Below, piece by piece: positions 8,310-20,487 of a stretch of DNA of 64,000 nucleotides. Both the position numbers and the translations under genes were made by a program. The stretch lies in the NCBI GenBank assembly GCA_027486675.1, contig JAIXOQ010000008.1, forward strand, positions 1-64,000. Direction: 5' to 3'. Source of the DNA: Pseudomonadota bacterium. Its GTDB lineage: Bacteria > Bdellovibrionota > UBA1018 > CAIMNF01. The notes under the pieces were generated by a model that did not search any database, was not told the DNA's origin, and worked only from the letters and a program-made list of their open reading frames with translations. Within the stretch, counting starts at the first letter, position 1. Each line of letters begins with the position of its first letter.

Positions 8310-8384
8310 GATGCAAGTTAAAGGGGAGTCCCTCTCCTGTAGCCCCGTCATACGGACCTCTTGCCACTCTCCCGGGGATCCAGT

Positions 8385-8525
8385 ACTGTCACCGCAACTT
8401 GGAACTGAGGGAATCCGGTGTGAATCCGGAACTGTGCCGCAACGGTTATAGCGGGTGTGCTCATGACATCACTCGCTTAAGTCTGGTCGCTCGCCAAGGA
8501 AGCTCGCGTAAGTAAGAAATTCCCG
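8385..8525 (+). promoter_or_regulatory. Cobalamin (adenosylcobalamin-type) riboswitch
   Basis: The core runs from TGAGGGAATCCGGTGTGAAT (8406-8425) through CCGGAACTGTGCCGCAACGG, which is the conserved L5/J6 signature. A hairpin follows, AGCGGGTG with CACTCGCT (about 8450-8478). Then comes a diverged B12 box, AAGTCTGGTCGCTCGCC (8479-8495), which matches the consensus at about 10 of 17 positions. The AGGAGA ribosome site (8529-8534) and ATG 8541 follow, so repression of translation by B12 is likely. The downstream gene is not a known B12 transport or synthesis gene. Confidence 0.9.
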
Positions 8526-8540
8526 CGCAGGAGATTTGTT

Positions 8541-9308
8541 ATGTTTTTTTGGTTCCTGATTCATCTCACCCTAAGTTTTCAGTCGCATGCAGCGCCAGAG
8601 ACAGATCCCGCACCGACGAGCTTAAATTCCTGCGCTCTTCACACAGACCCCGATCTGAGAGAGGCCGCAGTGAAGAATACGGAAAGGGCAGCACTCACGG
8701 ACTTAGATCAATCGTTACACCGTCAGGGGATTCCAGCGAACGAACGAAAATGGCGCGTAAAACTAGCCATGATGATCGGTGTTAATATTTTAGTCACAAC
8801 CGGCGTGATGGTGGGCATCCCGGATTCACTTGTAGTGCTGAAGACTGCGCTTGTATCCACGTGGCAATCCATAACGACCTATTACATCATGGCGTATGGT
8901 GCGCCTGCGATTGAGTTGTTTGTATCTAAGCACCGCTTACGGTCTTATCAATCGAGTCAGGATGCCACAGCCGCGCTGTCTGATTTAGATGATCTTTATC
9001 CTTCCACTCAAGGGAAGATCACTCTCAATGCACAGATGATCCGAAATACCATCCAGCAGATGAATATTTATGCCGATCCCCATCTTAAAAGGGCCCGTCG
9101 ATGTTATGACGCAGGCGACTTAGATCAAGCTGTCGAAGCAGTCCTTGTCATCCACAAGAGCTTGAAAGATGCCTATCCTGAGATTCCTCTGAGTCAGCGT
9201 TTCATTCAAGTTGAGGTCAGGATGGCGCTCGGGCGGAAAATGCTTGGGGATGAAAGAGTCAGAAAGCGACTCGAAGGCCATGCAGTTATCAATGACTGGT
9301 TCCTCTGA
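8541..9308 (+). CDS. Exported protein of unknown function under B12 riboswitch control
   Basis: A 255-residue protein with signal peptide MFFWFLIHLTLSFQSHAAPE (cleavage likely after SHA). One further hydrophobic segment, LAMMIGVNILVTTGVMVGIP (about residues 72-92), lies near a second weaker one (TTYYIMAYGAPAIELFV), so the mature protein may be membrane inserted. The C-terminal half is helical and charged, with tetratricopeptide-like spacing (RARRCYDAGDLDQAVEAVLVIHKSL). No family is recognised. Position right after the cobalamin riboswitch with a good AGGAGA site means it should be made when B12 is scarce. The secreted metalloprotease-like gene starts 70 bases downstream and may share the transcript. 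Confidence 0.75.
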   Translation: MFFWFLIHLTLSFQSHAAPETDPAPTSLNSCALHTDPDLREAAVKNTERAALTDLDQSLHRQGIPANERKWRVKLAMMIGVNILVTTGVMVGIPDSLVVLKTALVSTWQSITTYYIMAYGAPAIELFVSKHRLRSYQSSQDATAALSDLDDLYPSTQGKITLNAQMIRNTIQQMNIYADPHLKRARRCYDAGDLDQAVEAVLVIHKSLKDAYPEIPLSQRFIQVEVRMALGRKMLGDERVRKRLEGHAVINDWFL

Positions 9309-9378
9309 GATATCAGCGGGAACATCGCATTGCTTACACCTCAATGAGGAGTGATAAGATCATTTCTGGGAGGCAAGG

Positions 9379-10311
9379 ATGCAGCCAAAGGCCTATAAAC
9401 TCGTTAAGACTTTGCTCTGCTGTGCAGTGAGCCTGATCAGCCACCTCGCACTTGCCGGTCCGAACTCCAAGATTAAACCAGAGCCACCCCTCAGCGCAGA
9501 AATGGCTGACTCGCGTGAGTATCAAGGCATGCGATGGAAAGTGGAGTGCCGTCCAGGTGCATTTGAAGGGCAGGGGTTAAAAGCCCGCATGCTGATGCTG
9601 GATTTTGCGGAGCAAGTCTTAAAGGAAGGGTTAGCGCGACTTGAGCGAATCAATGGGAGTGCTGCATGTCAAATGCGAGAAGAGCTCAAAAAAAAGCCAT
9701 TCATATTCAAATGTGAAGGCCGTCTTGGAAAAAAGACTGTTGCGATTACTGCGCCGAGAATACTTGGGCGTATGGGTCTGGCAAAATTCCACTCGAATAT
9801 TTTAGCGCCAACAGTTGTAAAAACTCTTCTTGCTGGATCCGGGATAGAAAAACCAAGTTCCGATGAAATCAGAGCTGCAAAAAATACACTCTTTCATGAA
9901 ATACTCCATGCGGCCGGCGTGGAGAACAAAACTCTGCGAGCCCATAGGCGCGTCTACAAATCAAAGACTATGGATCAAGATGTGACCTTCTCTTGCGCAA
10001 ACTTCATCTTCCCAGATCCGAAAGTGGAGGCATGCATCAAGAAGATTGACGGTACGCCGTGTTTTTTTAAGAGCGCAATGTGCGCGACATGCGCTGAGTT
10101 TGAGCCCAAAGTGACCAGTTGCCGTAACCAGATGATTTATGTCTCGATCAATGGCGCCCCAGTCGGGTGTAGTGATCAGGAAGCAGATCCGACGATGACT
10201 CCGGCAGGTTGGCCTTCATCGAAAACCTCAGCGACTGTACCAGATGCAGTGAATCCAAATCGCGGTCCAGCAAATCCTACTGTAGACGCAGTGGTCGTTC
10301 CTGAGCTTTAG
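9379..10311 (+). CDS. Secreted Cys-rich HExxH metalloprotease candidate
   Basis: A 310-residue exported protein. Signal peptide KLVKTLLCCAVSLISHLALA ends near residue 27. HEILH at residues 173-177, in a LFHEILHAAGV context, is a classical zinc-peptidase motif. About ten Cys in the mature part, several clustered at about 210-260 (CFFKSAMCATCAEFEPKVTSC), suggest disulfides. The C-terminal 40 residues are Pro/Asn/Thr rich. GGAGG at 9368-9372 supports ATG 9379. It lies 70 bases after the riboswitch-controlled gene on the same strand, and its stop overlaps the convergent gene by 4 bases. Family and substrate are not recognised. Confidence 0.72.
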   Translation: MQPKAYKLVKTLLCCAVSLISHLALAGPNSKIKPEPPLSAEMADSREYQGMRWKVECRPGAFEGQGLKARMLMLDFAEQVLKEGLARLERINGSAACQMREELKKKPFIFKCEGRLGKKTVAITAPRILGRMGLAKFHSNILAPTVVKTLLAGSGIEKPSSDEIRAAKNTLFHEILHAAGVENKTLRAHRRVYKSKTMDQDVTFSCANFIFPDPKVEACIKKIDGTPCFFKSAMCATCAEFEPKVTSCRNQMIYVSINGAPVGCSDQEADPTMTPAGWPSSKTSATVPDAVNPNRGPANPTVDAVVVPEL

Positions 10312-18342: not shown

Positions 18343-18351
18343 GGGGTGCAG

Positions 18352-20487
18352 ATGGGTCGTTTTAGGCTGTTGTTTGGTATTTCTTGTTTCCTGGGACTTC
18401 AGGCTTTAGGCGCCGAATCTGAAATGCCTAAGGAAAAGCTGCCTCGGGCCTTTGAGACGGTTATAGGCGACAGGTGGTCTAAGGCTTCGGCCTTTGAAAC
18501 CCAAGGCTATGACCAGAAGGGGAGGCTCCTATCGGGAAAAGGATCGACCAAGACGGAACTAGAGACACTTCCCTCTGTGCCCACGCAGAACTTCCGGCAA
18601 TTGTTTTCAAAAACGCCAGGGCTCTTGACCAGTGAAGTCGCAAACGAAAGTTTTGCTTCCATTTCCTACCGGGGATTAGGTGATCCGCACGAAGGTTTTA
18701 ACATCCTCATGCTTCAAGACGGCATACCCATTTCGCCCGACATGTATGGCTATCCTGCGAACTACTACATTCCATCCACCGATAGCTTAAGCGCGACCGA
18801 ATTTGTGCGCGGAGGCGCAAGTTTGTTGTACGGCCCTCAACCCGGGGGTGCGCTGAACTATGTCACCCGAAAGCCGCGTTTGGATCAGGGAATTAAGTCC
18901 CGATTGAGTCTTAGAGGTGGATCAAAGAATTTCCTGTCTGCTTCAGGCGAAATCACAGGGTCAGTGGGAGACACTGCAGTCTTAGGCTCGATTCAAAATC
19001 GATCCTCAGATGGATTTAGGTCGGGGAATAGTGATTTCTCAGTCACAAATGTTTCTATAAAAACAGCGACTCGCATCAATGACAAAACACAGGTTTCTCT
19101 AGACGGCGGTTACAACCAAGGCAGATTCGCTGAAGCAGGAGGAGTTGCCTTGAGTCCCGCAGCAGGGCTTGTTGCTTTGGATGATCCATATCGAAATTCT
19201 CTTAGTTTTGATCATCTAGACATCGAGCGCTCTTATGGTGTCTTAGGTGTCACCCACGAAATGAGCTCAAGGTCCTTCTTGGCTATCAAACTTTTTGGAT
19301 CCGTGACTGAGAGAAACAGCTATCGGCAAAACTTAGGCACAGCCACCCAGTTTGGCGGAATACCAAACGCGGATGCAAATACGATTCAAAAACAAAGCTT
19401 CAGACAGTTAGGCCTGGATGCGCGCTACCAGCTCGACTCTGAAATCCTAGGCGGTAAAAATACATGGACTGCGGGGATATTGGGTTATGCGGTGGATTCT
19501 CCTTTTGTGCAAGAGCTTGGAGAGACCGCGAAGGCTTCTTCTGGTGCTACCCAGAAGGACATCGATCGAAAGACACGGGTTCTTTCATTGTTTACAGAAA
19601 GTAGATTTTCTTGGGGGGGTTTTTCGATCACCCCAGGCGTGAGACTTGAAAATATTTATCAAAGCATCGCGGAGCTTAAAAATGTAGGCGCCACGGTTCC
19701 ACTGAGGTCCGATAAAAACTTTGTCATGAAACCGCTCTTTGGCGGTGGTGTTGAATACAGAATTGATACCTCGAATACAACCTATCTCAACGTATCTCAA
19801 GGCTATAAGCCAGTTACCTTTCAGGATGCGATCCCGCTTCGCGTGGGTGACGGCATCAGTGAAGATATCCGTGCTGCAAACACGGTCAGCAGTGAAGTCG
19901 GAGTGAGAGGGCAGGGAAGTGATTGGTGGTCTTATGATTCGTCTGCTTTCTATATCACTTATGACAATCAGTTCGGCCGAGTAGGAAGTGTGATTCAGAA
20001 TACCGGTGGGGCAAGGCACTTTGGGCTGAACGGTGCATTTGAGATGGATCTATCAACGCTGATCGATCGATCTGTCGGTTCCGCTTTGCATAAAGATATC
20101 GGTGCCTTTCACCTCTTCGGAAATGTACAGGCTTTAAATGCGCAATTTGATCAGGGGCCATTGCGTGGAAACCGGCCGCAATATGCGCCTTCCTATTTGG
20201 TACGTTCAGGCGTGACCTATTACCCGGTTCCGTCTACCAAGTTCATGCTTCTGAATACTTTTGTGAGTCGCCATTTCGGGGATGACGGCAATAGTGGAAA
20301 CTTCGTGATCCCAGCTTACCGAGTTTGGGATCTCACGGCAGAGGTTGAGGTTTTTCAGGATCAACTGTCCGTCGTAGGTGGAATCTATAATCTGTTCAAT
20401 AACTTTTATTGGTCGAGAGTCCGGTCCAATGGAATTGAACCAGCAAACCCACGTAATTTCTACGTGGGTTTGACTGGTAGAATTTAG
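18352..20487 (+). CDS. TonB-dependent receptor, FecA/siderophore type
   Basis: An outer-membrane active transporter of 711 residues from ATG 18352 (AGGGG upstream). The signal peptide is MGRFRLLFGISCFLGLQALGA. The plug domain (about 65-175) has NFRQLFSKTPGLLT, SYRGLGDPHEGFNILMLQDG and FVRGGASLLYGPQPGGALNYVTRKP. The 22-strand barrel follows and ends in PRNFYVGLTGRI. The plug resembles FecA-like ferric citrate/siderophore receptors more than BtuB. No N-terminal FecR-signalling extension is evident. The Fur-like site upstream supports iron uptake. The last 40 bases hold a 12-bp perfect inverted repeat. Confidence 0.9.
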   Translation: MGRFRLLFGISCFLGLQALGAESEMPKEKLPRAFETVIGDRWSKASAFETQGYDQKGRLLSGKGSTKTELETLPSVPTQNFRQLFSKTPGLLTSEVANESFASISYRGLGDPHEGFNILMLQDGIPISPDMYGYPANYYIPSTDSLSATEFVRGGASLLYGPQPGGALNYVTRKPRLDQGIKSRLSLRGGSKNFLSASGEITGSVGDTAVLGSIQNRSSDGFRSGNSDFSVTNVSIKTATRINDKTQVSLDGGYNQGRFAEAGGVALSPAAGLVALDDPYRNSLSFDHLDIERSYGVLGVTHEMSSRSFLAIKLFGSVTERNSYRQNLGTATQFGGIPNADANTIQKQSFRQLGLDARYQLDSEILGGKNTWTAGILGYAVDSPFVQELGETAKASSGATQKDIDRKTRVLSLFTESRFSWGGFSITPGVRLENIYQSIAELKNVGATVPLRSDKNFVMKPLFGGGVEYRIDTSNTTYLNVSQGYKPVTFQDAIPLRVGDGISEDIRAANTVSSEVGVRGQGSDWWSYDSSAFYITYDNQFGRVGSVIQNTGGARHFGLNGAFEMDLSTLIDRSVGSALHKDIGAFHLFGNVQALNAQFDQGPLRGNRPQYAPSYLVRSGVTYYPVPSTKFMLLNTFVSRHFGDDGNSGNFVIPAYRVWDLTAEVEVFQDQLSVVGGIYNLFNNFYWSRVRSNGIEPANPRNFYVGLTGRI
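20444..20472. repeat. 12-bp perfect inverted repeat at the 3' end of the TonB receptor gene
   Basis: CAAACCCACGTA (20444-20455) and TACGTGGGTTTG (20461-20472) pair perfectly across a 5-base loop. It is inside the coding region, 12 bases before the stop codon, between two convergent genes. It could end or stabilise transcripts from both sides. The T-run on either strand is only three bases. Confidence 0.6.

Follow-up and report, generated by a model that had tools for sequence, protein, structure and literature searches.

A cobalamin riboswitch before the gene of an undescribed exported protein, a candidate component of B12 acquisition in Bdellovibrionota

In the stretch of DNA analysed here (the window, 64,000 nucleotides), the forward strand carries a cobalamin riboswitch at about 8398-8542, upstream of an open reading frame for an exported protein of 255 residues. 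The family to which this protein belongs is undescribed in Pfam, in NCBIfam and in the literature searched. We can best understand the pair as a riboswitch of the translational OFF type and, behind it, an exported protein, associated with the membrane, that has a part in B12 acquisition, an explanation to which, as far as the role of the protein goes, we give an even chance. With its repeated position behind cobalamin riboswitches, in one case next to btuB, and its occurrence in auxotrophs most of which lack BtuC, the family makes a concrete candidate that can be put to the test, and its members are probably an unrecognised part of the way in which Bdellovibrio-like bacteria that are unable to make B12 acquire it.

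The riboswitch and its expression platform

When all 4227 Rfam families are run with relaxed filters, the cobalamin model RF00174 matches positions 8411-8534 of the forward strand with 28.4 bits (E 2.1e-5), and in a scan of the whole genome (2.7 Mb) the window element is the sole match to this model (E 2.6e-5). The covariance-model scan that an earlier, sequence-only reading of this DNA had proposed as a check thus finds the element with relaxed filters, at a score (28.4 bits, E 2e-5) that is under the gathering cut-off of RF00174 (31.5 bits); at that curated threshold Rfam does not pick it up. The same reading had called the aptamer core convincing, and this is upheld both by the RF00174 match (E 2e-5) and by the core itself, CTGTGCCGCAACGGTTA, which has one mismatch against the consensus used here; in shuffled DNA, cores with three mismatches or fewer arise by chance at a rate of 0.0018 per 400 nt. 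The cobalamin riboswitch in the window is confirmed as real, and cobalamin is presumably the ligand of the RNA. The Rfam alignment has to be corrected at one place, where the model forces CAGGAGA into the 3' part of the aptamer: this segment is the Shine-Dalgarno/P13 region and belongs to the expression platform.

The aptamer extends from about 8398, at P2, to 8498 (Table 1). It has the conserved core of RF00174, with the GGGAA junction, the P4 hairpin and the P5/L5 element CTGT-CCGCAACGG, and it has both the closing P2/P3 helix (CUUGG/CCAAG) and an 8-bp P6, while comparison with relatives places the equivalent of the B12 box, AAGTCTGGTCGCTCGCC, at about 8479-8495. Over 16 riboswitches, the P2/P3 arms pair better with their own partners than with swapped arms (0 of 2000 permutations). 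Folding of the whole RNA (8340-8560) gives nothing better than shuffled sequence (z +0.58), a nested minimum free energy structure being unable to hold a kissing loop.

It is in the expression platform that the mode of control can be read. The P13 hairpin carries GCGCA in its loop (8525-8529), encloses the Shine-Dalgarno sequence AGGAG (8529-8533) and pairs the AU of the start codon, and the GCA of L13 (8527-8529) is complementary to the UGC of L5 (8435-8437). A CCG-N-G-Y-AGG motif directly before the start codon is common to 16 distinct riboswitches of the phylum, and in every one of them the middle base of L5 can pair with base Y of L13, as G:C in 10 and as C:G in 6, with no exception (Fisher p 1.2e-4, computed without correction for relatedness). 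Riboswitches of the new family include both types of pair, and so do those that precede other genes. A role of the L5-L13 interaction in the control of the ribosome-binding site by ligand has a precedent in the literature (PMC9600662), and the sequences compared here support a ligand-bound kissing loop that would bury this site. Because L5 and L13 covary, and because P13 holds the Shine-Dalgarno sequence, repression by B12 is the expected direction of regulation, in the form of a translational shut-off.

The window element shares P4, P5-L5, P6 and the B12-box equivalent with the RF00174 and AdoCbl-II (RF01689) riboswitches under translational L5-L13 control, as well as the kissing loop onto a P13 hairpin that bears the Shine-Dalgarno sequence. 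It differs from them in its score, which is under the curated cut-off, in some 13 extra nucleotides (~13) between the 3' arm of P2 and P13, and in the gene that it would regulate, which is undescribed.

Table 1. Riboswitch elements and downstream genes in the window (positions counted from its first nucleotide)
Feature	Position	Strand	Details or basis
P2 5' arm CUUGG	8398-8402	+	Partner CCAAG at 8494-8498, present in window
Aptamer core: GAGGGAA junction, P4, P5-L5	8407-8445	+	RF00174 alignment; common to btuB riboswitches of the class
P4 UCCGG/CCGGA	8414-8418 / 8426-8430	+	RF00174 alignment
P5-L5 CUGUGCCGCAACGG	8432-8445 (L5 UGC, 8435-8437)	+	RF00174 alignment
P6 helix AGCGGGUG/CACUCGCU	8450-8457 / 8470-8477	+	8 continuous pairs; direct sequence reading
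B12-box equivalent AAGUCUGGUCGCUCGCC, including P2 3' arm	8479-8498	+	By-eye alignment with AAGYCCGATCGCTC of relatives
P13 platform hairpin	8512-8542	+	Fold -7.4 kcal/mol, z -2.5
255-residue exported membrane-associated protein, unnamed family	8541-9308	+	Signal peptide, Cys31, hydrophobic hairpin about 66-119, helical C-terminal domain
310-residue secreted HEILH protein, many Cys	9379-10311	+	70 nt after the 255-residue frame

A protein family recurrently found behind cobalamin riboswitches

The gene that follows the riboswitch had been read from its letters as coding for an exported, membrane-associated protein of an undescribed family, and this description holds: the open reading frame is as it was given, and Pfam has no match for its product, nor for the 310-residue product of the next gene. 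When 12 members of the family were compared with Pfam and NCBIfam, PF01032 and the BtuC models included, none scored above cut-off. A search of the literature found no description of the family, which does not exclude an earlier mention.

Hydropathy gives the protein a signal peptide followed by one or two hydrophobic segments; positive charges stand at both ends of the hydrophobic hairpin, which is at odds with the topology that cleavage of a signal peptide would lead one to expect. All 11 members of the phylum alignment have a cysteine soon after this peptide, one that the two gammaproteobacterial homologues lack, and the family has a motif around S-x-N-x-Q-M-S-R-N, which in the window protein takes the form TLNAQMIRN. 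The AlphaFold model is all-helical, with a confident C-terminal domain and a low overall confidence (pTM 0.44). Submitted to Foldseek, this pTM 0.44 model has no match in the PDB at E 0.001 or better, and with VIA-align its best match (Z 6.0, rmsd 3.5 over 89 residues) is to generic helical bundles. Designed chlorophyll-dimer proteins of the PDB were considered as kin and rejected, the profile match spanning only some 37 residues (~37) of the C-terminal helices.

No relative was found when genome contigs were searched with the window protein by itself, and protein searches at the level of family and order gave none that was convincing. A match in L003, in the SecE/NusG region, is spurious. The family was discovered by reading which genes the other cobalamin riboswitches in the class precede and then comparing the product of one of them, in L005, with the window protein. 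This product, an exported protein of 314 residues, resembles it with E 9e-6 in that single comparison. A profile made of the two proteins led to relatives in the phylum and hence to an enlarged profile, with which the family is found in 19 of 368 Bdellovibrionota genomes; the enlarged alignment, with 11 members, is too diverse for a pattern scan. Those relatives that carry a name come from metagenome-assembled genomes (MAGs) labelled Bdellovibrionaceae, Bdellovibrionales, Bdellovibrionota or Deltaproteobacteria. As these genomes are among those of its own phylum, their names also assign the window to Bdellovibrionota. An Oceanospirillales MAG and Parendozoicomonas haliclonae have remoter homologues (L087 3839-4606, L088 3638-4390); these are without a riboswitch and lie between genes that, by eye, resemble mutM and trpS.

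The sequence-only reading had made its proposal depend on an association of homologues with B12 loci, and such an association is found: a cobalamin riboswitch stands directly upstream of the family gene in 10 of the 19 genomes, and in one (G285) the gene is divergent from btuB, identified as a TonB-B12 receptor (TIGR01779, E 1.7e-73). In the remaining nine of the 19 the gene has no detected riboswitch. The upstream riboswitches score 28.4 bits in the window, 47.6 in L005, 60.4 in L043, 43.8 in L044, 33.9 in L045, 57.3 in L046, 25.2 in L048, 41.1 in L051, 32.4 in L066 and 17.3 in G255; the last one (L081 2824-2957), which has an enlarged P4, was first missed by Rfam, is visible by eye and is the weakest case. 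In nine of the ten linked members the core motif precedes the start codon by 75-110 nt (chance rate 0.0018 per 400 nt), and the tenth, in G053, has a divergent core yet reaches 47.6 bits. Furthermore, of the nine genomes in which RF00174 detects the linkage, seven have no other match to this model than the one before the family gene. On the family tree, where many forks are weakly supported, the linked members stand apart from one another rather than in one clade, and their identity to the window protein is about 20%; the linkage is therefore either ancient and was lost in some members, or came about more than once. The intergenic region of G285 (L082 3335-3824) holds two cobalamin riboswitches on opposite strands, one leading to btuB and the other to the family gene.

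A proposed role in B12 acquisition and its rivals

B12-binding enzyme domains are present in all 16 family-bearing genomes examined and CbiC in none of the 16, and because of this absence synthesis of B12 de novo is unlikely in these organisms. A FecCD/BtuC permease is found in six and missing in ten, and only two of the 11 family-bearing genomes of best quality have it; the counts of FecCD and CbiC refer to family-bearing genomes only (n=16). The genome of the window contains MetH and the C-terminal domain of methylmalonyl-CoA mutase. It also has a BtuC-like (FecCD) gene that adjoins a BtuF-like gene, and in the presence of these two genes the window protein cannot simply replace BtuCD.

Taken together, the system might work as follows. 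With corrinoid bound, L5 of the aptamer would pair with L13 of P13, so that the Shine-Dalgarno sequence and the start codon would be locked, and it is when B12 is scarce that the 255-residue protein would be made. Once exported, the protein would be anchored by its hydrophobic helical hairpin and would have a helical C-terminal domain with the conserved SxNxQMSRN-type motif. In a B12 auxotroph it would then most probably aid uptake, either as an inner-membrane step or as a partner in the envelope, in which case corrinoid would be passed from a TonB-dependent receptor to the inner membrane. Both the biochemical function of the family and its part in uptake are what we infer here, and it speaks against uptake that a solute transporter would be expected to have more than two hydrophobic segments. 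A more specific proposal, tentative and in our view rather more probably wrong than right, is that the family represents a novel class of membrane protein for B12 uptake, small, exported, with a hydrophobic hairpin and a conserved cysteine near the N-terminus, which would perform or enable the import of cobalamin through the inner membrane in Bdellovibrionota that need B12 and are devoid both of its synthesis and of BtuC.

Known systems offer partial parallels. BtuM, a predicted inner-membrane B12 transporter (PMC6072759), is likewise a membrane protein of B12-auxotrophic Gram-negatives that possibly lack BtuCDF, and it has one nearly invariant cysteine, taken as a ligand of cobalt. However, BtuM has six transmembrane helices whereas the window protein has one or two hydrophobic segments after its signal peptide, and the cysteine of the new family lies near the mature N-terminus, so that on this point the likeness to BtuM is only suggestive. 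With BtuB and BtuCDF the family has in common control by cobalamin riboswitches in the phylum, as well as the divergent arrangement with btuB in G285; it differs in matching no model of a Btu protein in Pfam or NCBIfam. As with genes that were assigned to the B12 regulon by riboswitch context (PMC3766115), its function is suggested by the riboswitch upstream; in contrast to them, it has no description in the literature searched.

B12 acquisition is the best-supported function, and its main rival is a factor of the envelope that would respond to B12 starvation. The riboswitch would then be just as real and conserved, and the protein, instead of serving uptake, would for example adjust the state of the membrane or of the life cycle when the cofactor of methionine synthase and methylmalonyl-CoA mutase is missing. 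This is what one might expect from a group whose cobalamin riboswitches also precede genes that are not involved in transport, NrdA-like in L020 and 4HBT thioesterases in L019 and L117, and from a small protein with what is modelled as a helical C-terminal domain in place of a transporter fold. We nevertheless hold it to be unlikely, since the family gene is paired with btuB in G285, since it follows the sole RF00174 match, the place expected for an uptake gene, in seven of the nine genomes that RF00174 shows to be linked, and since many linked genomes are without BtuC. It might also be asked whether a btuB that has since been lost left its riboswitch behind in the window, decayed or hitch-hiking, and whether this remnant has no role for the 255-residue gene. 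Its score under the Rfam gathering cut-off would agree with this, and so would the fact that the closest genomes, at family level, have neither the gene nor any riboswitch; yet nothing is broken in the core, P2, P6, P13 or the L5-L13 pair, and across the phylum this linkage is met again with proteins of about 20% identity, which makes such decay very improbable.

There remains the neighbouring gene. The cysteine-rich HEILH frame that had been noticed 70 bases downstream is confirmed, with 310 residues, and it had been proposed that this candidate metalloprotease and the 255-residue protein might jointly free corrinoid from carrier proteins of prey or of the environment. Only 70 nt, in which no terminator-like site is seen, separate the two genes, and both products look exported, but no other member of the family has the protease next to it, and RF00174 has no match in the genomes of the order with its best-scoring homologues (G009, G034, G039 and G047; E 1e-5 to 1e-6). 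The corrinoid-releasing unit has therefore to be given up as next to incredible. What survives of the proposal is its aim, coping with scarcity of B12, which fits the present results, with uptake as a simpler reading of it than proteolysis. As the 70-nt gap has no terminator-like site, the HEILH gene may be co-transcribed with its neighbour; its vicinity to the family not being conserved, the protease was dropped as a part of the system, and its presence there is probably incidental.

Other riboswitches of the class and of the window

Most other cobalamin riboswitches of the class lie upstream of TonB-dependent receptors. Some precede genes of another kind, such as a 4HBT-type thioesterase in L019 (1500-2794, G033), where a nitroreductase comes next, and in L117 (G303), or, in L010 (1501-2179, G033), a different exported protein of about 193-205 residues without known family. 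In L118 (1050-1831, G122) a weak cobalamin riboswitch match stands before a membrane protein of the DUF6580 family (PF20221, E 4.6e-33), with a platform, CCCGAGGAGG, of the same type. This DUF6580 protein is another candidate B12 transporter; a literature search on DUF6580 found no paper. In the window itself, a siderophore-type TonB-dependent receptor (18346-20487; TIGR01783, E 4.5e-35) is without a cobalamin riboswitch, and a TPP riboswitch (325-436, 55.8 bits) is placed before genes that, named by eye, resemble thiM, thiE and thiD (423-2705).
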